Assembly (NCBI GenBank): GCA_003697105.1
Contig: RFFQ01000190.1
Coordinates: forward strand, 1-22,845
Length of the DNA stretch: 22,845 nucleotides
Direction: 5' to 3'
Source of the DNA: Gemmatimonadota bacterium
Lineage (GTDB): Bacteria; 4572-55; J002
Below, in pieces: positions 6,323 to 22,109 of the stretch (position 1 is the stretch's first letter; each line of letters opens with the position of its first letter). The position numbers and the translations under genes were made by a program. Below the pieces are notes generated by a model that did no database searches, was not told the DNA's origin, and was given only the letters and a program-made list of their open reading frames with translations.

Positions 6323-6351
6323 GCCATTTATCATAGTTTGATTTTAGGATG

Positions 6352-6384
6352 AAACCCCTGTTGGAAATCCGGCAGGGGTTTTTT
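6352..6384 (+). terminator. Intrinsic terminator after the lipoprotein pair
   Basis: AAACCCCTG (6352-6360) pairs with CAGGGGTTT (6373-6381). Pairing continues inward through G-T and GG-CC pairs to an AAAT loop, and a T-run (6379-6384) follows. This is a standard Rho-independent terminator 29 nt after the LysM gene. Confidence 0.9.
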
Positions 6385-6395
6385 GTATGAAACGC

Positions 6396-6474: not shown

Positions 6475-7416
6475 ATGGGAAAACGCCGGATTTTTATTGT
6501 AGATGATGAAGACCGAGTTTTGGAGTTGCTCCGCTTCGGATTGGAGATGTCAGGTTACGAAGTCATCTCCGCTCGGGATGGGGGGGAAGCTCTGGAAAAA
6601 ATCCAGCAGACCAAACCGGATATTATTGTCTCTGACATCATGATGCCGGGCTTAGATGGGTACGAACTCTGCAAAATCCTGCGAGAAAACCCTGAAACCT
6701 ACCTGATCCCATTTATCTTTTTGAGTGCAAAAGGACAAGTACCCGATAAAATTAAAGGGATCAATCTAGGGGCAGATGAATACATGACCAAACCGTTTGA
6801 TGTCCAAGAACTCCTCGCCCGTATTGACGCGATCATGACGCGGGTCGATGAAGTTCAAAGCCATGCTACCAGCAGTGATACCGCCATCTCCGGCAAATTA
6901 TCCCAGATGGAGATCGTGGATGTGATCCAAATCTGCCAACTGGGGCAGAAAACCGGAATGTTAAAATTAATACGCGAAAATATGGAAGGCTATCTGTTTT
7001 TCCTAGAAGGAGAAATTATTGACGCCAGTTTGTTTACTCAAAAGGGCGAAAACGCATTCTACCGCCTCCTGACATGGCGAGAAGGCAATTTTCAATTTGA
7101 TCCGAGGGAGCCTCTAGTACAACGTACCATTTTTAAGTCCACTTCGGCGTTGCTAATGGAAGGATTACGCCGGCTAGAACAGTGGAAACAAGCCAAAGAA
7201 ACCGCCCCCTCGTTAAGTACCATGCTGATGCCTTCCGGACGAAGTGTGAACCGGGATCACCTCTCAGAAAATGAACGAATCGTCTTTGAAATGATTGACG
7301 GTAAACGTGACTTATATACCATTTTAACATTAAGCCAACTCACTGGGGAGCAAGTCTTTAAGAGTGTCCTGCGGCTGATGGAATTAGAACTAATTGAACC
7401 CATTATAAATACCTAA
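6475..7416 (+). CDS. Response regulator with C-terminal DUF4388 (PATAN) domain
   Basis: The protein has 313 residues. Residues 5-121 form a complete receiver domain: acidic pair D10-D11, phospho-acceptor D54 (IIVSDIMMPGLDG), switch residue S84 and K106 (MTKPF). Residues about 139-240 match DUF4388/PATAN (SGKLSQMEIVDVIQICQLGQ, GYLFFLEGEIIDA, REGNFQFDP), a domain found in gliding, polarity and signalling proteins. Residues about 255-313 look like a small winged-helix-like fold (ENERIVFEMIDGKRDLYTI). There is no standard OmpR or NarL DNA-binding domain, so output by protein-protein contact is likely. It is the first gene after a new promoter, and its stop codon abuts the ATG of the acyltransferase gene. 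A likely, unproven partner is the receiver-kinase encoded three genes downstream. Confidence 0.9.
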   Translation: MGKRRIFIVDDEDRVLELLRFGLEMSGYEVISARDGGEALEKIQQTKPDIIVSDIMMPGLDGYELCKILRENPETYLIPFIFLSAKGQVPDKIKGINLGADEYMTKPFDVQELLARIDAIMTRVDEVQSHATSSDTAISGKLSQMEIVDVIQICQLGQKTGMLKLIRENMEGYLFFLEGEIIDASLFTQKGENAFYRLLTWREGNFQFDPREPLVQRTIFKSTSALLMEGLRRLEQWKQAKETAPSLSTMLMPSGRSVNRDHLSENERIVFEMIDGKRDLYTILTLSQLTGEQVFKSVLRLMELELIEPIINT

Positions 7417-8337
7417 ATGGCAAAATCTATATCTCAAACGATTAAGAACAACCTATTATATGTCCTTATTCGGGTATTAATTCTTGTCGTTCAATTGGTT
7501 TCACGACCGGTCGCATTTATGATGGCTAAATTCTTGGGGAATTTAGCCTTTTTGCTACTTCGTACGGAACGGCACCGAATGCAACATCACTTGACAATAG
7601 CATTCGGTAAGGAAAAAAGCGCTCCTGAAATTGAGCTGTGGGCTCGACAAACCTTTGTGGATTTAGCCCAAAATGCAATTGACGCCATCCGCCTCCGGTA
7701 TATGAATGCCGATAATATCCGGGCATATATCACCGTTTCCGGCGAGGAACATCTGGCAAATGCCTACCACCAAGGTCGGGGTGTTATTGCCCTCAGTGCG
7801 CATCTGGGCTGTTTTGAACTCATTCCGGTGTTCTTTGCCTACCGGGGATTCCAGGTGAGTGTCTTTTCCCGGGTGTTATATGATCGCCGCTTGGATCACT
7901 TGTTGGTTCGAAATCGCCAGAAACATGGGGTCCATGATATTCATCGCCGGCACGGTATCCGAGGGTTGTTGCGTGCCCTCCGCAACGGGCACTGTCTCGG
8001 TATTTTAGGAGATCAGGATACCAAAGTCGAAGGTATTTTCGTCCCCTTTTTTGGAAAATTGGCACATACACCCTCCGGACCCGCCGCAATGGCACTCACC
8101 ATGAAAGCACCGATTGTTATTGTGGTAATCCATCGCGATTCACGAACTCAACGACACCATATTCAGGTCACACCGCCATTGATTCCACCCGAATCTACCA
8201 GTAAAGAAGATGCTATCCGGGAACTGACAACCCAATATAACCAACAATTGGAAATGTTTATTCAGGAACACCCAACCCAGTGGGTCTGGATGCACCGGCG
8301 CTGGAAAAAACAACCACCAAAAGAAATCACAAACTAA
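7417..8337 (+). CDS. LpxL/HtrB-family lipid A acyltransferase
   Basis: This 306-residue protein belongs to the lysophospholipid acyltransferase superfamily branch that adds secondary acyl chains to lipid A on the inner face of the cytoplasmic membrane. An N-terminal hydrophobic segment (about 12-48) would anchor it. The catalytic HX4E motif is SAHLGCFE with H129 and E134. Further family blocks are GILGDQD (substrate-binding region), VPFFGKLAHTPSGPAAMAL and the C-terminal WVWMHRRWK. The ATG follows directly on the stop of the response-regulator gene with no gap, so translation is probably coupled; lptC begins one base after its stop. Next to lptC, a role in LPS assembly is strongly supported. 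Which acyl position or chain it handles (LpxL, LpxM or LpxP type) cannot be told. Confidence 0.9.
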   Translation: MAKSISQTIKNNLLYVLIRVLILVVQLVSRPVAFMMAKFLGNLAFLLLRTERHRMQHHLTIAFGKEKSAPEIELWARQTFVDLAQNAIDAIRLRYMNADNIRAYITVSGEEHLANAYHQGRGVIALSAHLGCFELIPVFFAYRGFQVSVFSRVLYDRRLDHLLVRNRQKHGVHDIHRRHGIRGLLRALRNGHCLGILGDQDTKVEGIFVPFFGKLAHTPSGPAAMALTMKAPIVIVVIHRDSRTQRHHIQVTPPLIPPESTSKEDAIRELTTQYNQQLEMFIQEHPTQWVWMHRRWKKQPPKEITN

Positions 8338-8338
8338 G

Positions 8339-8905
8339 ATGAAATCTTTCCGACCCTTCTTATTTCTGCTCGTATTAGGGATAACCTTCAATAGCTGTGA
8401 ACCGGAGGAGATCGAGCCGCCGGTAAAAGCCCCGCAGGTCACGGATACCACCCGTACCCCAGATCAAATATTGTTCGGATTCCGGTTAAAAGAAACCGTG
8501 TTAGGCGACATCAAATGGGAAGCGCTGGCTCAAAAAGCCACTATTTTTGAGACGGATAAAAAAGTGATTGTCGATACCATCCAGATCGATTTTTATCAAG
8601 AAGGGGCTTTGTATTCCACCCTAACGGCAGATAGTGGCTTAATCTACCAAAATACCAACAACATGGAAGCCTACGGTAACGTGGTGATCGTCACGGAAGA
8701 CGACCAACGGCTTGAAACAGACCGCCTGTTTTGGGATAATACCCGGCAAAAAATCTACTCCGATGCCTTCGTGACAGTTACCCAAGGCAACGATGTTTTA
8801 ACTGGGGTTGGATTTGAGACAGACCCCCAACTCAAACATCTGGAAATTAAAAAGAACGTCAATGCGAAAATCCGAAAGATTAAGGGAGACCATCATGCCA
8901 AATAG
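8339..8905 (+). CDS. lptC: LptC-family LPS export lipoprotein
   Basis: The protein has 188 residues, with a signal peptide ending in a lipobox (FNSC, Cys20). It matches the FCB form of LptC, which is a lipoprotein rather than the single-span form of E. coli. The body is a run of short beta-strands (FGFRLKETVLGDIKWEA; ATIFETDKKVIV; GALYSTLTADSGLIY; MEAYGNVVIVTEDDQRLETD; QKIYSDAFVTV; LTGVGFETDP), the OstA/LptA-type beta-jellyroll fold. LptC receives LPS from the inner-membrane LptBFG complex and passes it to LptA. The ATG sits one base after the acyltransferase stop. The end overlaps the next gene's preferred start by 11 nt. lptA and lptB are not in the window. Confidence 0.88.
   Translation: MKSFRPFLFLLVLGITFNSCEPEEIEPPVKAPQVTDTTRTPDQILFGFRLKETVLGDIKWEALAQKATIFETDKKVIVDTIQIDFYQEGALYSTLTADSGLIYQNTNNMEAYGNVVIVTEDDQRLETDRLFWDNTRQKIYSDAFVTVTQGNDVLTGVGFETDPQLKHLEIKKNVNAKIRKIKGDHHAK
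8882..8888 (+). promoter_or_regulatory. Ribosome binding site choosing the kinase start at 8895
   Basis: AAGGGAG lies 6 nt before the ATG at 8895, inside the end of lptC. The upstream in-frame ATG at 8808 would add 29 residues lying deep inside lptC and unlike any receiver domain, so 8895 is preferred. Confidence 0.75.
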
Positions 8906-10019
8906 CACCGATCCACCCCGTATTTTGATTGTCGATGATGTCAAAAATAATGTATTGCTTATGGAAATGTTACTAAAAAAGCATGGATATATCCCCATTT
9001 CAGCGTATAGCGGTGCAGAAGCGCTGGAGAAAATCGAACAAAACGATATTGACGTGGTGGTCATGGATGTCATGATGCCCGAAATGGATGGCTTTGAAGC
9101 GACTCGCCACATCAAAGCCAATGAAAAAAGTAAACACATTCCGGTGATTTTACTTACCGCCCAACGTCGTAACCTCACGGACATGGTCACGGGTTTGGAT
9201 AGCGGCGCCGATGAGTACGCCACCAAGCCCATTGATGAGAAAGAACTCACGGCAAAACTGCGTGCGCTGCTACGCATTAAAGAATTATATGATCAACTGA
9301 ATGATGCCAATACCCGTTTGCGCGAACTCGACCAGCTTAAAAATGATCTGACTCACATGATTGTACACGATCTGCGAAACCCGTTGACCGGTATTCTGGG
9401 ACACCTGCAACTCTTAAAAATGACAGAACTCTCTGCAGAACAGTCCAACACGCTGGATAATGCCTTACAAAACGCGGAGCAACTGCTGGGGATGATCACC
9501 GACCTGCTGGACATCAGCAAAATGGAAGAAGGCAAATTAATGCTCAAGACCAGCCCAATCATTTTTGAAGATGTGGTCCAGGTGGCACTTCGTCAGGTTC
9601 AAGTGCTCGTGGAAGAAAAAGGGATCAACCTCCAAATCGCTATCAATGAAACACTCCCCGTGATCATTGCCGATTACGATAAACTGCTGCGGGTGATGGT
9701 TAACCTATTGAGCAATGCCATCAAATTCACCCCCCCAGCCGGACACATTGAGATTCGGGCTAACGTGGTCGATACGACTACCATTCAAGTCAGTGTGAGT
9801 GACACCGGAGAAGGTATTCCAGAAAATTATCTGGATCGAATTTTTGATAAGTTCATTCAGGTGGAAAGCCGCAAAGCCGGACGTAACCTATCCACCGGAT
9901 TGGGATTAACCTTTTGTAAACTGGTGCTCGAAGCCCATCAGGGAAAAATCTGGGTGGAAAGTGCTTTGGGGAAAGGAAGTACCTTTTATTTCAGCCTACC
10001 ACTACAAACTGAGCGATAG
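8895..10019 (+). CDS. Cytoplasmic receiver-histidine kinase (REC-HisKA-HATPase)
   Basis: With the 8895 start the protein has 374 residues. Residues 8-125 form a receiver domain: D14-D15, phospho-acceptor D58 (VVVMDVMMPEMDG), and K111 (YATKPID). A short coiled linker (about 128-150) leads to the HisKA domain with phospho-accepting H158 in IVHDLRNPLTGILGHL. The ATPase domain shows the N box (LLSNAIKFTPP), G1 (SDTGEGIPE), F box (FDKFIQVE) and G2 (STGLGLTF). There is no membrane segment or PAS domain, so the input must come through its own receiver or a partner protein. It overlaps lptC by 11 nt and ends 23 nt before the oxoamine synthase gene. I infer a phosphorelay with the response regulator at 6475, linked to envelope lipid genes. 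Confidence 0.93.
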   Translation: MPNSTDPPRILIVDDVKNNVLLMEMLLKKHGYIPISAYSGAEALEKIEQNDIDVVVMDVMMPEMDGFEATRHIKANEKSKHIPVILLTAQRRNLTDMVTGLDSGADEYATKPIDEKELTAKLRALLRIKELYDQLNDANTRLRELDQLKNDLTHMIVHDLRNPLTGILGHLQLLKMTELSAEQSNTLDNALQNAEQLLGMITDLLDISKMEEGKLMLKTSPIIFEDVVQVALRQVQVLVEEKGINLQIAINETLPVIIADYDKLLRVMVNLLSNAIKFTPPAGHIEIRANVVDTTTIQVSVSDTGEGIPENYLDRIFDKFIQVESRKAGRNLSTGLGLTFCKLVLEAHQGKIWVESALGKGSTFYFSLPLQTER

Positions 10020-10042
10020 ACCATTGTTGAGGGAGATATAAG

Positions 10043-11230
10043 ATGGACGCATTTATCCAAGCGCGAAAATTCGCCGCTGAAAAAAAAGACGTGGTGCATG
10101 CCGGAATTTATCCGTTCTTTATGCCACTAAGTGAAACCGAAGGAACTGAAGTCGCCGTCAAGGGTCATCGCTTGATTATGATTGGCTCAAACAATTATTT
10201 GGGCTTAACCACGCACCCCAAAGTGCGAGAAGCCGCCCTCCACGCGGTACAAAAATATGGCACAAGTTGTACCGGCTCCCGATTCTTGAATGGAACATTG
10301 GAACTCCATGAGGAATTGGAACACCGGTTAGCAAAATTCCTCCAAAAGGAAGCCGCTTTGGTGTTTAGCACGGGCTACCAGACCAATTTAGGGACCATCT
10401 CTACGATTCTTGGCAAAAATGAGCACATGATTGTGGACCGGGACGTTCACGCTTGCATCATCGATGGCTGGGCATTGGCCAACGGTAACTTAAAGCGTTA
10501 CCGGCATAATCAGATGGATGACCTGGAAAAAACCCTCCGTTCCTTGCCACAGGACGAGGGAAAATTGGTCGCCGTAGATGGGGTGTTCAGTATGGAAGGA
10601 GATTTAGCAAATCTACCAGAAATCGTCCCGCTCTGCCAAAAATACAACGCCCGTCTGCTGGTGGATGATGCGCATTCAATCGGTGTGATGGGACCGCGTG
10701 GCGAAGGAACCGGAGTCCATTTTGGCTTGCAAGATCAGATTGACTTGGTTACCGGCACGTTCAGCAAGGCTTTTGCATCGTTAGGGGGTGTTGTTGCCGG
10801 TAATAAAGACATAATTGATTACATTAAGCACTTTGCGCGTCCCTTTATTTTTAGTGCCAGTATGCCGCCCTCCAATATTGCCGCTGCACTTGCCGCCCTA
10901 GACATCATGGAACAGGAACCGGAACATCTCGCCCGTCTTTGGAAAAATACGGAATATATGCGGCGGGGCTTTCAAGATTTAGGGTTCGATACCGGGCATA
11001 GCGTCACCCCCGTGATTCCAATCATCATCGGTGGTAGCCGGGAGCGCGTATTTACGATTTGGCGGGCATTATTTGATGCCGGCGTTTTCGTCAATCCCGT
11101 TATTCCGCCTGCGGTGCCGCCCCGCCGTTCGTTGTTGCGGACTAGCTACATGGCAACTCACACCACCGATCAACTAGACCGTGTTTTGGAAATTTTCAAA
11201 ACAGTCGGTAAAAAATTTGATATTATTTGA
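10043..11230 (+). CDS. PLP-dependent alpha-oxoamine synthase, serine palmitoyltransferase-like
   Basis: This 395-residue fold-type I PLP enzyme belongs to the family that joins an amino acid to an acyl thioester with loss of CO2 (serine palmitoyltransferase, 8-amino-7-oxononanoate synthase, 2-amino-3-ketobutyrate CoA ligase). Seen: SNNYLGL at 49-55, GTSCTGSRFLNGT at 73-85, H136 as the cofactor-stacking His, DDAHSIGVMG at 208-217, and the Schiff-base K242 in TGTFSKAFASLGG. The N-terminus GIYPFFMPLSETEG, which ends in a Gly-Thr-Glu, recalls bacterial serine palmitoyltransferases of Bacteroides type more than BioF. No biotin or threonine-degradation genes are near, while LPS genes are, which favours a sphingolipid-type role. 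GGGAGA lies 6 nt before the ATG. The stop overlaps the convergent phosphorylase gene by 8 nt. The exact substrate stays open. Confidence 0.85.
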   Translation: MDAFIQARKFAAEKKDVVHAGIYPFFMPLSETEGTEVAVKGHRLIMIGSNNYLGLTTHPKVREAALHAVQKYGTSCTGSRFLNGTLELHEELEHRLAKFLQKEAALVFSTGYQTNLGTISTILGKNEHMIVDRDVHACIIDGWALANGNLKRYRHNQMDDLEKTLRSLPQDEGKLVAVDGVFSMEGDLANLPEIVPLCQKYNARLLVDDAHSIGVMGPRGEGTGVHFGLQDQIDLVTGTFSKAFASLGGVVAGNKDIIDYIKHFARPFIFSASMPPSNIAAALAALDIMEQEPEHLARLWKNTEYMRRGFQDLGFDTGHSVTPVIPIIIGGSRERVFTIWRALFDAGVFVNPVIPPAVPPRRSLLRTSYMATHTTDQLDRVLEIFKTVGKKFDII

Positions 11231-12859: not shown

Positions 12860-15800
12860 GTGTCTTTTGATTTGAAACGTAATGCTTCGATGGTCTCATT
12901 CCGATTTTCCCCGTTGTGCCTTTTGATGTTCAGTTTGATCCTCTTTACCCCCTCTTCCAGTGGGGCAGAAACGCCACCGGAAGCCTATGATTGGTTGCGG
13001 GAACGTGCGTTTTTCCGCTATCGTGATGCCACACCGCAACTGACGGAACAAACCCCCGGGCTGAATTTTCTTTATGGACAACCCTTACTGAAATCCACCA
13101 ACCGGAATACGACCCCCCAACGCCGGTTTGAAATAGATTACCAACGAGGCATCGTGGTAATCTACGATGAAATTTACGGACACATTCTAGGGCAACCGCT
13201 TATCCTCTCGTTGGATGAATATTTCCGCCTAGCCAACCGTAACCAAAGTTTTCAAAATTTACTGAACCAAAGCATGACCGAGCTGGCGCGCCCCGACCGC
13301 TTTGTGGATAGTGGCGGCGGGTTGGTGCCCACCCTAACCTTGCCAATCCAAATTCCGGAAGATAGTTTTTTTTCCGGCTGGTTAATCTCGGAAGAAGGGG
13401 AAGGCAATCTGGCATCGTTAACCGTCAGCGGGCATCAGCGGATTTCGTTCTCGGGGCGGACGGATTACTACCCCAATCGAAACGATAATACCTCCGTAAA
13501 GCAGTCTAAATTCCCCAAATTGGATATGGAACAGGAACTCAAAGTCAATCTGGAAGGGAAAATCGGGGATAAAATCAGTGTACTGGTGGACCACGACAGC
13601 CGCCGCGACAGCCAGCATAAAAACACCATTCGCTTGCGGTATGATGGTGATGATGATGAAATCATTCAAGAACTAGAAGCCGGTAACACCACCCTCTCCT
13701 TAGGAAGCGGTCCCACGTTTATCCAAAGCAGTGTGGCACATGAAGGGCTGTTTGGCATCAAATCACGCCTTAAATTTGGAAATTTGACCATCACGACCAT
13801 CACCAGTAAAGAAGAAAGTAACACCGAAAGCTCCCGGTTTGAAGGTACCGCCCAAAGTGACAGTACCATCTTGGAAGATTACCGCTATATCCGCCGCCAG
13901 TTTTTCTACATCAACGAACCGGAACAGCTGGTTCGAGATTATGCCAGCGGGCAATGGAGTACCAGTTCTGTACTCCCCCGCGATGTCACCGAAATTCAAG
14001 TCTGGTTAGATGATGGGGAAATTGAGAATAATCTGGAAGACGGGGCTATCTATGCCAAAGCCGATATTTATGGGCGAGAAAATGCCACTAGCCCGTACCA
14101 GATTATTGATCAAACGGAAGGGAACTTTCACCGGTTGTACAGCCCGGAAGATTATCAAATTGAGTACATTGAGGATGCCAGTACCTCAGAAGTTATCGGA
14201 TACACGCTCTATTTTCGGCAAGCCATTTCCACGCAAGCCATGTTAGGGATTTACTACGAAGCTCGGGATGGTACCACCTATGGACGACTCCCCGCCAGCG
14301 AGGCGGACACCCTGCACCTAAAATTGATCAAATCCATCACCTCACATCTCCCGGATGACCCCACGTGGAAGTACGAAGTCCGTAACCGGTATCGCATCAG
14401 TAATACCGCCATTGAAGACAACAATTTTGAACTGGTGATTTATAGGGTCGCCCAGACCGGTGATCCGGTGGAGTTTCAAGAAGGCTCAAACCGGAGTTAT
14501 ATGGAGATTATGAACCTGCGAGACCCAGATACCGGCTGGTTTATTCCACCCAACCCCAGTTTTTGGGAGACCGGAATTCTGCAAGTGCCCGGTATCTATC
14601 CGTTTGCGGGGGGAGAAGACCCCGTACCCCCCGCTACACCGGATGTCGCCTTCTTCGGACCCTCTGAACTGACCGAAGAAGAACGCAACCCTGATATTTA
14701 CAATACCTCAGACTCAGAAATCAACCGCGATACCGGAAAATACAACAAGTTTTTCTTTGTCGCACGCTACGCCCGCACCCAGAAAGAACTCCGTCTGGGG
14801 CGCTTAAACGTACTGGAAAGCAGTATCCGGGTGTATAAAAATGGCCAATTGCTAGAACTAAACAAGGATTACCGCGTTGTACCGGAAATTGGCTTGGTGA
14901 CCTTGTTGGAAGCACCATTACCCACCGATGATATTGCCGTTGATTACGAATACAGTCCCTTTCTGGCGCAATCCCAAAAAACATTGCTCGGTATCCGTGG
15001 TGAATACGAAATAAGTGACCGTTCTAAAATCGGTCTGACGTGGATGTACAAAAGCGAAAGTACCCGTGAAGATCGCCCCCGCATCGGCAACGAACCGAGC
15101 CGCCACATGCTGTTGGATATGGATGTCACCTCGGATTTTGATATGCCGATTTTCACCCAGTTGGTCAATACCATCCCGTTTATGGAGACGGAGGCAAAAA
15201 GCCAGTTCCGTCTCGGCGGGGAGGTGGCGATGTCCCTACCCAACCCCAATACAAAAGGCGATGCCTATATCGATGATTTTGAAGGCTCCGAACAAGCCCA
15301 AACCCTCGGCATGACAGACCGCGCGTGGAAGTTGGGGAGTACCCCGCCCGCGATTTCCGAAAATTACACCCCCACCCCAGAAAATAAAGCCGAAATGTTT
15401 TGGTACAATCTGGTGTCACGGGATCGAGTGGTGCAACGAGAAGATATTTATTCTAATTTGGGTCGCCAAGAAGCAGATGACTACATTGATGATATTCTCT
15501 ATTTTGCCATCAAGCCGGATGTACCGGATTCCTCGTGGGCATCCGTCCAAAGTTTGCTCTCGAAAAGCGGAATCAGTTATGCCAACTCCAAGTATATTCA
15601 ATTTTGGGTGAAAAGCACCGAAGGGCACATCCACATTGATATGGGAGATGTCAGCGAAGACTCCTACAACACCGGATATGGCTACGTTTACGCCCAAGCT
15701 GGCAATGCGCAAAACCCCAGTTGTGCCCCCAATAAAGGCAACCTGAATTCCGAAGATATTTATTTGGGGAAACGCGATGGGCAACCCCAACTGAACGATG

Positions 15801-18800
15801 AGGATATCGGGTTGGATGGAATCCCGCGCAATAGCACCCGGTGTGACTCACTCGTGGATACGACGGATGATGACGCAGACCGATTTAATTACGATGCCAG
15901 CTTTGATTATAACAATCCCGTTAAATATAAATACGTGAATGGGACCGAAAAAAATGGCTACCTCGATACCGAGGATTTGGATGAAAATAATCGGCTAAAT
16001 ACCACTGAGCGCTTTTTCCGCTACTCTGTCGATCTGGATAGCTTGAGCGAAGACAGCCGGTTTGTGGTGGCGCGTGGTAATCGCGACCCCTCCTGGCGAC
16101 TCTTCCAAATTCCCCTGCATGACCCCGATGTCATTGAAACCAATACCACCGTTGATTTGCAAGACCCGGACGCCATTCGTTCCTTTTTGGATGGATTAAA
16201 ATATATGCGCATCTGGTTTGATGGTGTCCGCGATACGACAAAGTACACCATTATTCCCATCTACGATCTTCAAGTCACGGGTAATAAATGGCAGGAAAAT
16301 AACCTCCGCCAGTTCGGAACGGATCGGGATATTACCGATGCCGAAAAAGCCCCCACTGAAAAAGTAGAAATCACCGTCCGTAACACCCAAGACCACGAAT
16401 ATTATGAACACCCACGGGGGGTGTACGTCGGCAAGGATGAAGAAGGCAACCCCTACCGGGAACAATCCATCAGCTTGGTCATACAGGATGTACAAGCTGG
16501 GCACTATGGCTCCGTTTATTTGGGCTATCCCGAAGGGCAAGATTATCTAAATTACGGTGCGGTGGCGTTTTATCTGACCGGATACCCCACGGCGCGTACC
16601 CTGCCCGGCACGGAAGTCATCTTTTTTATACGAATGGGCGCCGATAATCCCGATACAACCCATTACTACGAATACCGCCGCAAGATCGACATTTCACAGG
16701 GCATCAATTGGGAAGAAATCAAAATCAATTTTGCCGATTTTACCCAGTTGAAGTTGGAACGTCCGGAAACGGATCAATACTATTGGACGGGTAATCTGGA
16801 GGAAGGGATTTACGCGGTGAAAGGCGAACCGTCGCTGATTAACGTCCGGCGGATCACCTATGGTGTCGTGGCGATTCAAAATAATACCAACGGTGAGGTC
16901 TGGATTGATGATATGCGAGTCGTGGATGTCAACCGCGAGCCCGGATATGCGGCACGGATGAGTGTTTCCACCCAATTTGCGGACGTGCTCAGCCTCTCTG
17001 CCAATGTCTCCTGGCGAGATGCCGAATTTTATACCTTTCGGGAATCTAGCGGCGGGCGGCAAACCACGTTTGCGTGGGGATTAAGTGGGGTGACCTTAAA
17101 CCTGCACCGGTTGTTTCCCCAAAGTTGGGGCTTGAAATTGCCGGTGACCGGCAGTTGGACGGAATCCGCATCGACACCGAAATATCTGCCCAGTTCAGAC
17201 ATTCTATTAACCCGGGACGTGGCAGATGCAGAAAAAAGTACCTCGCGACGGCAGGAACTCCGAGCACAATTTAGCCGCACCACCAAAAAGGGCAATTGGT
17301 TGACCAGTCTAACCATTGACCGACTTACCCTGAACGGCTCGGTCTCCCGCGATGTCCGGTTAACCCCCACCCGCGAAGATACCACAACCCAAGTGACCGC
17401 TACCGGAAGCTATAGTTGGCGCTTACCAAGCAATTTTGGGCTGAATCTGAAAATCACCAAATTTAATCCCTTACCCACAGATTTATCCCTACAAGGTACA
17501 CTCCAACGGCGCGAATCCAAACAATATACGATCAATCGCACAACCAACAGCCGGTATGAAAACAAAACCCAACCAGTCAAAACACTGGGGGGGAGTATGG
17601 CACTCGGATTTCAAATCTTTACCGGGTTGACGTCAAGTTTGAATGTCACCACGAACCGCGATCTCTCCGAAGATGTGGGGGAACGATTCCTAACCTTCAA
17701 TTTAGGTAAAGAAACCCGCCACTCGCAAAAATGGACGAACAACTTCCGACCCAATCTACCGTGGATTTTTGCCTCCATCCGCCCTCAATTCAGCTTTGAG
17801 ACCACCTATGATGAAGATAATCGTTTTATTTCGGGGGCAACAAATCCAGATGGAAGCCGGGAATATACGCGCAATGTCTCGGTTGGACGGCGCTACGGAG
17901 CGTCCGGATCATTAGCATTTAACGACATTTTGCGCACCTTGGGACTCAACCTGACCAAAACGGGTGCCAGAGTCCCCTCACCGCAGGCGAAGATTCCCAA
18001 ACCGGCGGCGGTAAACGATACCCTCACGTCAGATGAAGCAAAAACGACCGTACCAGACGACGGTCCCAGTATCATCAGTCGCGGTATCAACAGTTGTTTG
18101 GGCGGTATTACCGGTATTTTCGGGCGGATTTCCCCGATTACGGTACGGTATGACCATAATGAGGGGCAGCGGTATGATCAAGTGGACCATCGCAAACCGG
18201 GGTATCGCTTTCAATGGGGCTTGTTGGACAGCTTAGATGTGGAAGGCCGGTTGCAAGCGGAGACACGCTCCGATAATTATACTGCCGGTACAGGCGTACA
18301 ATTGCTCACCAATCTGAATGTAAATACGGATTATACCTTGCAAGTGAGTGAAAATGTCTCTACCACATCCTCAACCAAAAACCAGCGCGAAAGTTGGCCC
18401 AAAGTTCGGGTGCAATTTAATCAGATTGAGAAATTCCCCTTTGTGCGAGCCGTGCTAACTACCGCTAGCCTGAGTTCAGAATATTCACAAGATTCCGAAT
18501 GGTCGGAAACCAACGGCGAACGAACGAGCGAAACGGCACGAACAACGTGGAAAGTGGTTAGTTTACGTTCAACCCTATTCAAAAAAATCAATTTAAATTA
18601 TAACCATGATCGCACCAATGCCGAATCCAACAATTTTGGCATTGATGGGCAGGTCAACAGCACCACAATTAACCGTACACAGGCTCATAATTTCACCTTG
18701 AGTTCACGGTTTCGTTCGCCACAAGGCTTTCGTATCCCGTTGCCGATCCTTTCTCGAAAATTGATCAAGTTTGACAGCGATCTGGACCTGGCCATCCCCT

Positions 18801-19030
18801 TTCAATATACAAAAACGGAAGCCAGCACTCGCACCAAAGATGGCACTGAAACCCCGAACCCGACCAGCACCACCACCCGCTGGTCTATCTCACCCTCCAT
18901 GAACTATAATTTTTCCCGAAGTATTACCGGAGGAATGCGGATGAAATGGCAAGAGGATGTGTACCCGTTAGATGATACCCGCGATCACCGGGTGATTGAA
19001 GTGGGGATTAACGCCATGTTCAAATTCTAA
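12860..19030 (+). CDS. sprA: SprA/Sov-like giant outer-membrane beta-barrel protein
   Basis: SprA is the giant outer-membrane barrel that forms the export pore of the type IX secretion system in Bacteroidetes. This 2056-residue homologue is somewhat shorter than the usual 2300-2500. Seen: a hydrophobic signal sequence (about 14-33, ending SSSGAETPP); the SprA hallmark NPNTKGDAYIDDFEGSEQ from residue 795; an acidic EF-like stretch (about 975-1045, with DTEDLDENNRLNTTE); then about 1000 residues of alternating beta-strands; and a terminal Phe (INAMFKF), as in BAM-inserted barrels. The GTG at 12860 lacks a good ribosome binding site. An ATG at 12890 (residue 11) gives a more typical signal peptide and may be the real start. 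A terminator lies 34 nt after the stop. The other T9SS genes (porV, gldK-N, porU) are not in the window. Confidence 0.9.
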   Translation: MSFDLKRNASMVSFRFSPLCLLMFSLILFTPSSSGAETPPEAYDWLRERAFFRYRDATPQLTEQTPGLNFLYGQPLLKSTNRNTTPQRRFEIDYQRGIVVIYDEIYGHILGQPLILSLDEYFRLANRNQSFQNLLNQSMTELARPDRFVDSGGGLVPTLTLPIQIPEDSFFSGWLISEEGEGNLASLTVSGHQRISFSGRTDYYPNRNDNTSVKQSKFPKLDMEQELKVNLEGKIGDKISVLVDHDSRRDSQHKNTIRLRYDGDDDEIIQELEAGNTTLSLGSGPTFIQSSVAHEGLFGIKSRLKFGNLTITTITSKEESNTESSRFEGTAQSDSTILEDYRYIRRQFFYINEPEQLVRDYASGQWSTSSVLPRDVTEIQVWLDDGEIENNLEDGAIYAKADIYGRENATSPYQIIDQTEGNFHRLYSPEDYQIEYIEDASTSEVIGYTLYFRQAISTQAMLGIYYEARDGTTYGRLPASEADTLHLKLIKSITSHLPDDPTWKYEVRNRYRISNTAIEDNNFELVIYRVAQTGDPVEFQEGSNRSYMEIMNLRDPDTGWFIPPNPSFWETGILQVPGIYPFAGGEDPVPPATPDVAFFGPSELTEEERNPDIYNTSDSEINRDTGKYNKFFFVARYARTQKELRLGRLNVLESSIRVYKNGQLLELNKDYRVVPEIGLVTLLEAPLPTDDIAVDYEYSPFLAQSQKTLLGIRGEYEISDRSKIGLTWMYKSESTREDRPRIGNEPSRHMLLDMDVTSDFDMPIFTQLVNTIPFMETEAKSQFRLGGEVAMSLPNPNTKGDAYIDDFEGSEQAQTLGMTDRAWKLGSTPPAISENYTPTPENKAEMFWYNLVSRDRVVQREDIYSNLGRQEADDYIDDILYFAIKPDVPDSSWASVQSLLSKSGISYANSKYIQFWVKSTEGHIHIDMGDVSEDSYNTGYGYVYAQAGNAQNPSCAPNKGNLNSEDIYLGKRDGQPQLNDEDIGLDGIPRNSTRCDSLVDTTDDDADRFNYDASFDYNNPVKYKYVNGTEKNGYLDTEDLDENNRLNTTERFFRYSVDLDSLSEDSRFVVARGNRDPSWRLFQIPLHDPDVIETNTTVDLQDPDAIRSFLDGLKYMRIWFDGVRDTTKYTIIPIYDLQVTGNKWQENNLRQFGTDRDITDAEKAPTEKVEITVRNTQDHEYYEHPRGVYVGKDEEGNPYREQSISLVIQDVQAGHYGSVYLGYPEGQDYLNYGAVAFYLTGYPTARTLPGTEVIFFIRMGADNPDTTHYYEYRRKIDISQGINWEEIKINFADFTQLKLERPETDQYYWTGNLEEGIYAVKGEPSLINVRRITYGVVAIQNNTNGEVWIDDMRVVDVNREPGYAARMSVSTQFADVLSLSANVSWRDAEFYTFRESSGGRQTTFAWGLSGVTLNLHRLFPQSWGLKLPVTGSWTESASTPKYLPSSDILLTRDVADAEKSTSRRQELRAQFSRTTKKGNWLTSLTIDRLTLNGSVSRDVRLTPTREDTTTQVTATGSYSWRLPSNFGLNLKITKFNPLPTDLSLQGTLQRRESKQYTINRTTNSRYENKTQPVKTLGGSMALGFQIFTGLTSSLNVTTNRDLSEDVGERFLTFNLGKETRHSQKWTNNFRPNLPWIFASIRPQFSFETTYDEDNRFISGATNPDGSREYTRNVSVGRRYGASGSLAFNDILRTLGLNLTKTGARVPSPQAKIPKPAAVNDTLTSDEAKTTVPDDGPSIISRGINSCLGGITGIFGRISPITVRYDHNEGQRYDQVDHRKPGYRFQWGLLDSLDVEGRLQAETRSDNYTAGTGVQLLTNLNVNTDYTLQVSENVSTTSSTKNQRESWPKVRVQFNQIEKFPFVRAVLTTASLSSEYSQDSEWSETNGERTSETARTTWKVVSLRSTLFKKINLNYNHDRTNAESNNFGIDGQVNSTTINRTQAHNFTLSSRFRSPQGFRIPLPILSRKLIKFDSDLDLAIPFQYTKTEASTRTKDGTETPNPTSTTTRWSISPSMNYNFSRSITGGMRMKWQEDVYPLDDTRDHRVIEVGINAMFKF

Positions 19031-19799: not shown

Positions 19800-19829
19800 T
19801 AGGCATTCGCTCATTTGTCACTTCAACAA

Positions 19830-19835
19830 AAGGAG
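19830..19835 (+). promoter_or_regulatory. Ribosome binding site choosing the protease start
   Basis: AAGGAG lies 6 nt before the ATG at 19842. An upstream in-frame TTG (19815) would place this site inside the coding region and spoil the signal peptide. Confidence 0.8.
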
Positions 19836-19841
19836 TCCAAA

Positions 19842-22109
19842 ATGTCTGTTAAGTCCCTCGTATTATGGATACTTATCTTCACCGTCAGTATAAATACCCG
19901 GTTGGCGGCACAACCCGCGGAAGAGACCCTGGCAGCCGCACCGGACGGTTGCCAACTCATCCCCGGACGGTTGATTGTCAATTTTCAACCGGCAATTTTT
20001 TCCGAGATCGACCCTACGAATATCCGGGTGGAACAGGGTATATTGACCACCGGCTTACCCTCCTTAGATGCGATTCATCGAGAGTTGCAGGTTTATGCGG
20101 GTTACCGGCTCTTTCCAGAAGCCCCGGCAATTCGTACCCGGGGTAAAGCCGCCTTACGCACCTACTATATCATCCAATTTCCCGAAACCGTCGATTTGGA
20201 TCGGGCAAAAACGCTGTATGCGGCACACCCGTTGGTGGAACATGTGGAGTTTGATCTGGCGTGCCCGGTGTATGAAGAACCCAACGACCCGCACTTTGGG
20301 CAACAGTGGGCAATGCCGCGCATCCAAGCGCCACTAGCATGGGATTTGACGCATGGTAGTGAGGCGGTTTCCTTGGCATCCTGCGATACCGGCGTGGATT
20401 GGAATCACCCCGATTTGGCAGAGAATATCTGGCAAAATTTAGGTGAAGATGCCGATGGCGACGGAACGGTACTAGAATGGACGGGTTCAACGTGGGTCTA
20501 TGACCCCGATGATGAAAATGGGGTGGATGATGATGGAAATGGCTTTGTTGATGATTTCATCGGGTGGGATTTTCTGGTATCTTCCACCTTTCCGGCACCG
20601 GGGGAGGATGGCGACACCCCGGATAATGATCCGATGGACTTCAATGGGCACGGTACGCACGTCGCCGGAATCATTAGTGCCACAACCGATAATGAGGAAG
20701 GTGTCGCCGGAACCGGCTACAACTGCAAAATTATGTGCTTACGCAATGGGTATCAAAACATCATTGGGTTGGGTTTGGTAGATATGAGTGCTTCCGCAAA
20801 TGCGTTCTACTATGGCACCAACATGGGTGTGACAGCGATCAATTGTAGTTGGGGTTCAAGTAATGGAGGCGGGCTAGCCGCAGCAACAGATTACGCCATT
20901 GAAAACGGGGTATTGATCGTCACGGCGGCTGGAAACGCCAATAATCAGGAAGCATCTTATCTGGCAAGCCGGGATGACGTCATGTCCGTTGCCGCTACAG
21001 ATCAAAATGACATTAAAGCCAGCTTTTCCAGTTATGGCACCTGGGTGGATATTTCTGCCCCGGGCGTGAATATCCACAATACGATGTTTGATGACACCTA
21101 CGCGGATTTGGATGGAACATCGATGGCAAGCCCACACGTTGTCGGTCTGGCAGGGTTAATCAAATCGGTCGCGCCGGACTGGCAATGGGAGGAGATTTAT
21201 AATCGAATTCAAGACACCGCAGACAATATCGATGACGTAAACCCTGATTATGCCGGTTTACTGGGAGCGGGGCGAATCAATGCCTTTCAGGCGGTGCAAG
21301 GTGTGGGAGACCCGGATATTGAGGTTTCAGTCTCTGAATTTCACGTGACCCAAGATGAAGGCGACCCGGCACAGCTCACCACCATGACGATCTTCAATTA
21401 TGGGAGTGAAACATTATCCTTTTCCATCACAGATGACCAAGAGTGGATTGAAACCGACCCCTCCACCGGTGAACTCGCCCCGCGGCACCAAGCCGAAATT
21501 GCCGTCACCATTGGAGGCGAAAATGTACCGGCAGGTGAACATACCGGGGAAATCAGCATTACATCCAATGACCCGGATGAATCTCCATTCACCATACCGG
21601 TTTTTCTAACAGTTCAAGAATCGGGACCCACTTACACCATCACCGGACAGGTAACATACAGCTTGGGCAGCCAACGGGGTATTCCCAATGCTACCCTGTA
21701 TTTAGGGGATAACTACCAGCAAAGAAGCTCAACTTCCGGTGACTTTTCGTTTGAACAAATCCCACCCGGTAACTATGCGTTATGGTGCGAAAACTCAGAA
21801 GATAACACCGGCATTAGCACCTTTGACGCCGCTCAAATTGCCCGTTTTGTCACCGGAAATCTGGATTTTAATGAATACCAGCAAATGGCTGCGGATGTCA
21901 CCGGTGATGGAAATGTCTCAATGTTTGATGCGGCACGGGTAGCACAATATGCCGCCGAACTGAATCCACCGAATACCCGGGCAGGGCAGTGGCAATTTCT
22001 ACCCGAACGGTATTCCTACATACCATTGGACAGCGATCAAACCCAGCAGAATTTTGTTGGAATCCTCTATGGTGAAGTCAGCGGGAATTGGTCACCGCCG
22101 GGACGTTAG
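19842..22109 (+). CDS. Secreted subtilisin-like (S8) serine protease with dockerin-like tail
   Basis: From the 19842 start the protein has 755 residues. Order: signal peptide (1 to about 23, ending TRLAAQ); a propeptide-like region (about 35-145); an S8 catalytic domain (about 150-485) with D182 in CDTGVDWNHPDL, H270 in NGHGTHVAGI, oxyanion N365 in AAGN and S427 in GTSMASPHVVGL. An acidic insert between D and H (about 200-240; DADGDG, DDENGVDDDGNG) probably binds calcium. Then come an Ig-like domain (about 491-591), a carboxypeptidase-regulatory-like strand domain (about 599-646) and two dockerin-like repeats (about 652-706; NTGISTFDAAQIARFVTG and DVTGDGNVSMFDAARVAQY), ending EVSGNWSPPGR. All catalytic residues are present, so it should be active. 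I infer a secreted, calcium-stabilised protease, perhaps exported through the adjacent SprA, although no T9SS sorting domain is seen. Confidence 0.92.
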   Translation: MSVKSLVLWILIFTVSINTRLAAQPAEETLAAAPDGCQLIPGRLIVNFQPAIFSEIDPTNIRVEQGILTTGLPSLDAIHRELQVYAGYRLFPEAPAIRTRGKAALRTYYIIQFPETVDLDRAKTLYAAHPLVEHVEFDLACPVYEEPNDPHFGQQWAMPRIQAPLAWDLTHGSEAVSLASCDTGVDWNHPDLAENIWQNLGEDADGDGTVLEWTGSTWVYDPDDENGVDDDGNGFVDDFIGWDFLVSSTFPAPGEDGDTPDNDPMDFNGHGTHVAGIISATTDNEEGVAGTGYNCKIMCLRNGYQNIIGLGLVDMSASANAFYYGTNMGVTAINCSWGSSNGGGLAAATDYAIENGVLIVTAAGNANNQEASYLASRDDVMSVAATDQNDIKASFSSYGTWVDISAPGVNIHNTMFDDTYADLDGTSMASPHVVGLAGLIKSVAPDWQWEEIYNRIQDTADNIDDVNPDYAGLLGAGRINAFQAVQGVGDPDIEVSVSEFHVTQDEGDPAQLTTMTIFNYGSETLSFSITDDQEWIETDPSTGELAPRHQAEIAVTIGGENVPAGEHTGEISITSNDPDESPFTIPVFLTVQESGPTYTITGQVTYSLGSQRGIPNATLYLGDNYQQRSSTSGDFSFEQIPPGNYALWCENSEDNTGISTFDAAQIARFVTGNLDFNEYQQMAADVTGDGNVSMFDAARVAQYAAELNPPNTRAGQWQFLPERYSYIPLDSDQTQQNFVGILYGEVSGNWSPPGR

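Follow-up and report, generated by a model that had tools for sequence, protein, structure and literature searches.

The five co-directional genes described here probably make up a lineage-private transcription unit, in which a working two-component pair is housed in a rearranged lipid operon and has a putative LPS role. They lie in the window, i.e., the whole stretch of 22,845 nucleotides that was analyzed (contig C74 of the source genome), and run on the + strand in the order response regulator (RR, REC-PATAN), LpxL, LptC, soluble REC-HisKA-HATPase kinase (HK), and serine palmitoyltransferase (SPT)-like enzyme (Table 1), separated by intergenic gaps of 0, +1, −11, and +23 nt. The coordinates, together with Pfam and NCBIfam searches, bear out the original prediction on the gene families and on gaps and overlaps from −11 to +23, and its residue numbering for the regulator (D54) and the kinase (D58 and H158) is correct. 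A literature search found no paper describing an RR-LpxL-LptC-HK-SPT layout.

Table 1. Features of the five-gene unit and its upstream boundary (positions in the window).
Feature	Position	Strand	Evidence
Intrinsic terminator of upstream LysM gene	about 6351-6385	+	Stem-loop with T run, dG −23.4 kcal/mol, z −5.0 versus shuffles
Response regulator: REC (1-122), PATAN/DUF4388 (137-243), winged-helix-like tail (about 250-310), D54	6475-7416	+	Pfam, AlphaFold2
LpxL-type lipid A acyltransferase, HX4E motif HLGCFE at residue 129	7417-8337	+	PF03279, 175 bits
LptC, lipobox-like Cys close to N-terminus	8339-8905	+	TIGR04409, 109 bits (cut-off 38); PF06835
Soluble hybrid kinase REC-HisKA-HATPase, D58 and H158	8895-10019	+	PF00072, PF00512, PF02518, motifs, hydropathy
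SPT-like PLP enzyme, Schiff-base Lys in GTFSKAF (238-244)	10043-11230	+	Closest solved structures, NCBIfam

The terminator of the LysM gene parts the five genes from their upstream neighbor, so a new transcription unit starts downstream of it. A promoter consensus scan returned 13 sites versus 12.3 expected from shuffles, i.e., no better than chance, and was therefore uninformative; of the proposal that all five genes run from one promoter, the new unit after a strong terminator stands, while the single promoter is deduced from gene spacing, from which we infer transcription as one operon. The kinase start was taken as the ATG at 8895, and the mechanical open reading frame opens earlier, at a TTG (8808). 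Horizontal insertion of the signaling genes was considered and rejected, since the base composition is the same across the unit (GC 0.45–0.49). Elsewhere in the window, dockerin-like C-termini are found in a DUF7619 protein (1-1513) and in a subtilase with BACON-like repeats (19815-22109).

LpxL retains an intact HX4E motif and the SPT-like enzyme an intact PLP lysine motif, and LptC, a protein that works outside the cytoplasm, passes its curated cut-off. A lipobox-like cysteine near the N-terminus of LptC recurs in three other loci (L059, L060, and L140), which suggests, at the level of sequence, that LptC of this group may be a lipoprotein and not a bitopic membrane protein. The last enzyme of the unit has the aminotransferase I/II fold of the alpha-oxoamine synthase family, and its closest solved relatives are SPTs, not KBL, AONS, or ALAS: Sphingobacterium SPT (PDB 3a2b/8guh), the nearest, matches it over nearly its whole length (443.7 bits), followed by Sphingomonas SPT (308 bits), versus at most 288 bits for other oxoamine synthases (AONS/KBL 288, KBL 257). 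It scores 535.9 bits against the NCBIfam CFB SPT equivalog, below the cut-off of 640, and is therefore named SPT-like. In KSB1 bacteria, the gene directly after the SPT orthologues (L168 and L169) encodes a GNAT acyltransferase, which we read as being of the bCerS kind; the SPT-like gene of the window, in contrast, is not beside a bCerS-like acyltransferase gene, and the GNAT homologue of the source genome resides on contig C54. A sphingolipid pathway encoded by unclustered genes is plausible in the source genome.

Gene order was compared with 30 LpxL loci of the KSB1 phylum with 1.5 kb flanks, with loci L059-L061, and with G001, one other genome of the source genome's own phylum and a member of the same class. 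KSB1 bacteria are the nearest named relatives by LpxL, and the usual LpxL neighbors in that phylum are KdsD/KdsC, LptC, and LptA: a co-directional LptC match lies downstream in 28/30 loci and KdsD or KdsC upstream in 26/30, while neither the regulator nor the kinase stands beside LpxL in any of the 30 within these flanks. Similarly, loci L059-L061 have the order KdsD-LpxL-LptC-LptA-LptB-RpoN with no kinase or regulator, and the E. coli order is kdsD-kdsC-lptC-lptA-lptB-rpoN. Measured against this cluster (in KSB1, KdsA-KdsD-LpxL-LptC-LptA-LptB-RpoN), the window shares LpxL directly before a co-directional LptC; unlike it, the window lacks kdsD, lptA, lptB, and rpoN and has the regulator before the pair, the kinase after it, and then the SPT-like gene. 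LpxL-LptC adjacency is so widespread in relatives that we regard the two genes as an ordinary ancestral pair. In the source genome, lptA-lptB are located on contig C14, so LpxL-LptC does not run on into them. In G001, the parts are scattered: LpxL follows KdsC and an SIS-CBS (KdsD-like) gene on contig C75, LptC-LptA-LptB are on contig C15, the SPT orthologue (66%) is on contig C27, and the best matches to the regulator and the kinase are weak and lie on two further contigs, apart from the lipid genes. The five-gene order is absent from the 30 KSB1-phylum LpxL loci, from L059-L061, and from G001; among the genomes compared, the regulator, the kinase, and the SPT-like gene are additions to LpxL-LptC found in the source genome alone. 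Two apparent links in G001 were discarded: a shared LysM-SPT synteny, where the similarity is confined to a short LysM repeat in a different protein, and an SPT-kinase association, where the kinase is a PAS-HisKA-HATPase located downstream, 410 bp off. Downstream of the operon lies the gene for an SprA-like protein of 2056 residues (window 12860-19030), and the SprA homologue of G001 is divergent from LptF/LptG (L141:1-5606), placing SprA near lipid-transport genes in both genomes.

The kinase carries Response_reg, HisKA, and HATPase_c domains, in which D58, H158, and the N, G1, F, and G2 boxes are all intact. Domain searches and hydropathy (highest 19-residue value 1.20) agree that it has no obvious sensor domain and no membrane segment, in line with the original prediction. 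This soluble architecture is that of Myxococcus AsgA: in both, the receiver precedes the kinase core, and there is no membrane segment and no PAS/GAF sensor. The genomic partners of such kinases vary in every genome examined. At least 23 REC-kinase genes occur in the regions of the source genome that were covered, many standing singly inside other operons (gyrB/AMP-ligase, HflX-glycosyltransferase, RmuC-M23 peptidase); one of them (L155:5771-9222) overlaps the gyrB end by one base. Outside the source genome, window-kinase homologues neighbor housekeeping genes (purine, threonine, succinate-dehydrogenase, and others) or belong to signaling clusters. With REC-kinases scattered in this way through housekeeping operons, a kinase beside lipid genes is unremarkable on its own.

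The regulator is a PATAN/DUF4388 response regulator, with Pfam scores of 105.0 bits for Response_reg (cut-off 30.2) and 92.8 bits for DUF4388 (cut-off 25), receiver residues D54, K106, and S84 in place, and no membrane segment (highest 19-residue hydropathy 0.91). The source genome has 12 DUF4388 matches, one of which adjoins a small Ras-like GTPase gene. In an AlphaFold2 model of the regulator (mean pLDDT 91.7, 20 sequences), a long linker helix leads from REC to PATAN, after which comes a C-terminal helix-helix-helix-strand module. The latter falls in the ~65 residues beyond PATAN (H265-273, H280-286, H291-303, E307-310), and its winged-helix-like pattern is common to the regulator and the PATAN paralogues of the same genome. 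This tail, which has no Pfam match, was overlooked when the regulator was described as having no standard DNA-binding domain. On the strength of the model, the tail is possibly DNA-binding-like, and a conventional two-component system, in which it binds DNA and the pair controls transcription, perhaps of its own operon, would fit both the predicted fold and its conservation in the paralogues. We consider this quite unlikely: besides the missing Pfam match, fold searches (Foldseek/VIA) with the full regulator model had the receiver domain alone among the matches listed, and PATAN proteins that lack a receiver carry this tail too, so that it may instead serve as a protein-contact module.

The known regulators closest in design are the cyanobacterial PATAN (DUF4388) proteins PixE, PixG, LsiR, and PatA, which likewise combine a receiver with PATAN; in contrast to these, the regulator described here has an N-terminal receiver and then the winged-helix-like tail, and its neighbors are lipid genes as opposed to pilus or chemotaxis genes. 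WelA was examined as a counterpart and set aside, as it differs in having a C-terminal receiver and membrane segments. Our literature search met DUF4388 in an unrelated context only. PixE works by protein contact with the pilus ATPase PilB1 (PMC7690835).

Within the source genome, several REC-kinases neighbor LPS genes. The closest full-length paralogue of the window kinase (contig C8, 48%; L108:4933-8267) has a 4-base overlap with an O-antigen ligase gene. The second closest (contig C88, 40%; L109:3655-11416) is followed after 41 bases by a fused LptF-LptG; UppP, PAP2, and a further kinase lie upstream. More distant REC-kinases precede HldE (contig C68; L152:6548-10741) and a GT9 heptosyltransferase (contig C46; L113:935-4539). 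The LptF-LptG fusion has 854 residues and two full PF03739 matches (L109:3655-6219), and the two proteins are encoded by adjacent genes in G001. With the window left out and comparison genes drawn from the same regions, LPS genes make up 4/35 co-directional neighbors of REC-kinases versus 14/683 for other genes (Fisher p = 0.009), in small numbers and in regions picked by similarity to window proteins; the LPS reference list, compiled by us, includes three of the source-genome genes counted. Set against other signaling genes, the figures are 4/35 and 1/70 (p = 0.04), the single case being the window's own regulator. In other genomes, none of the 51 co-directional neighbors of kinase homologues is an LPS gene, and we reject the idea that this kinase subfamily is an LPS family across phyla. 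In the kinase tree, the C74 and C8 kinases are sisters (96/87), C88 belongs to the same wider group, and C68 and C46 fall elsewhere; the label "LPS-adjacent" must have changed at least twice across the tree, which rules out a single LPS-adjacent clade. A link of REC-kinases with LPS genes is lineage-specific at best.

The within-genome excess and the position of the two closest paralogues in LPS operons favor some LPS specificity and speak against the private-operon reading. Separate REC-kinase copies sit in the LpxL-LptC-SPT, O-antigen ligase, LptF-LptG with UppP, HldE, and heptosyltransferase operons. One reading is a distributed phospho-network, in which a branch of soluble REC-kinases would have been recruited to LPS assembly in this lineage and would link the individual steps that supply outer-membrane lipids, REC-PATAN being one output; this network strikes us as improbable. 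A narrower proposal is a dedicated LPS/sphingolipid relay, in which the kinase would sense the state of the envelope lipids and REC-PATAN, once phosphorylated, would bind to LpxL, LptC, or SPT and so alter their activity post-translationally. It draws on the tight co-directional spacing, read as co-transcription, on the paralogous kinases listed above, and on the protein-contact mode of known PATAN regulators, as in PixE-PilB1. We hold it to be unlikely because the gene order is not kept in relatives, kinase homologues outside the source genome have no LPS neighbors, regulator and kinase contain no lipid sensor, and the periplasmic domain of LptC is out of reach for a cytosolic regulator. The original prediction of a self-contained phosphorelay adjusting LPS had been staked on a survey of gene order in relatives; with 0/30 KSB1-phylum loci and the parts scattered in G001, the order is not conserved, which refutes the prediction on its own terms. 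The modest within-genome enrichment is what still speaks for it, and a dedicated LPS control relay is a weakly supported possibility.

Conversely, kinase and regulator could belong to separate, unrelated pathways and share an operon through rearrangement only. The same kinase type stands single among purine, threonine, and succinate-dehydrogenase genes elsewhere and by gyrB here, as such an insertion would have it. This is a real but minority possibility, as regulator and kinase stand on either side of lpxL-lptC within a single unit, an arrangement that favors a pair, and the within-genome LPS enrichment also counts against it.

We therefore return to the lineage-private unit with a working two-component pair. 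Its origin would lie in an ancestral lpxL-lptC, parted from kdsD upstream and from lptA-lptB, and joined with two genes drawn from the large two-component repertoire of the source genome and with a sphingolipid-type gene. Input to the cytoplasmic REC-kinase may come via its own receiver, acted on by another kinase, or through a cytosolic partner. The kinase would autophosphorylate H158 and may pass the phosphate to D54 of the co-transcribed REC-PATAN regulator, whose output may be protein contact through PATAN and possibly DNA contact through the winged-helix-like tail. Co-transcription would fix dosage; it does not make LpxL, LptC, or SPT the targets, and we infer both the kinase-regulator pairing and its target.

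How this uncultured phylum balances its outer-membrane lipid supply has, to our knowledge, not been described, and, if true, the LPS link would amount to direct phospho-signaling on LPS assembly there. As it stands, co-location with two-component genes is weak functional evidence where genomes scatter kinases through housekeeping operons. In another genome, G054 (L170:1451-5833), an SPT homologue is divergent from a cluster that encodes a Ras-like GTPase, Roadblock, and two PATAN proteins; UppP lies on the far side of this cluster.
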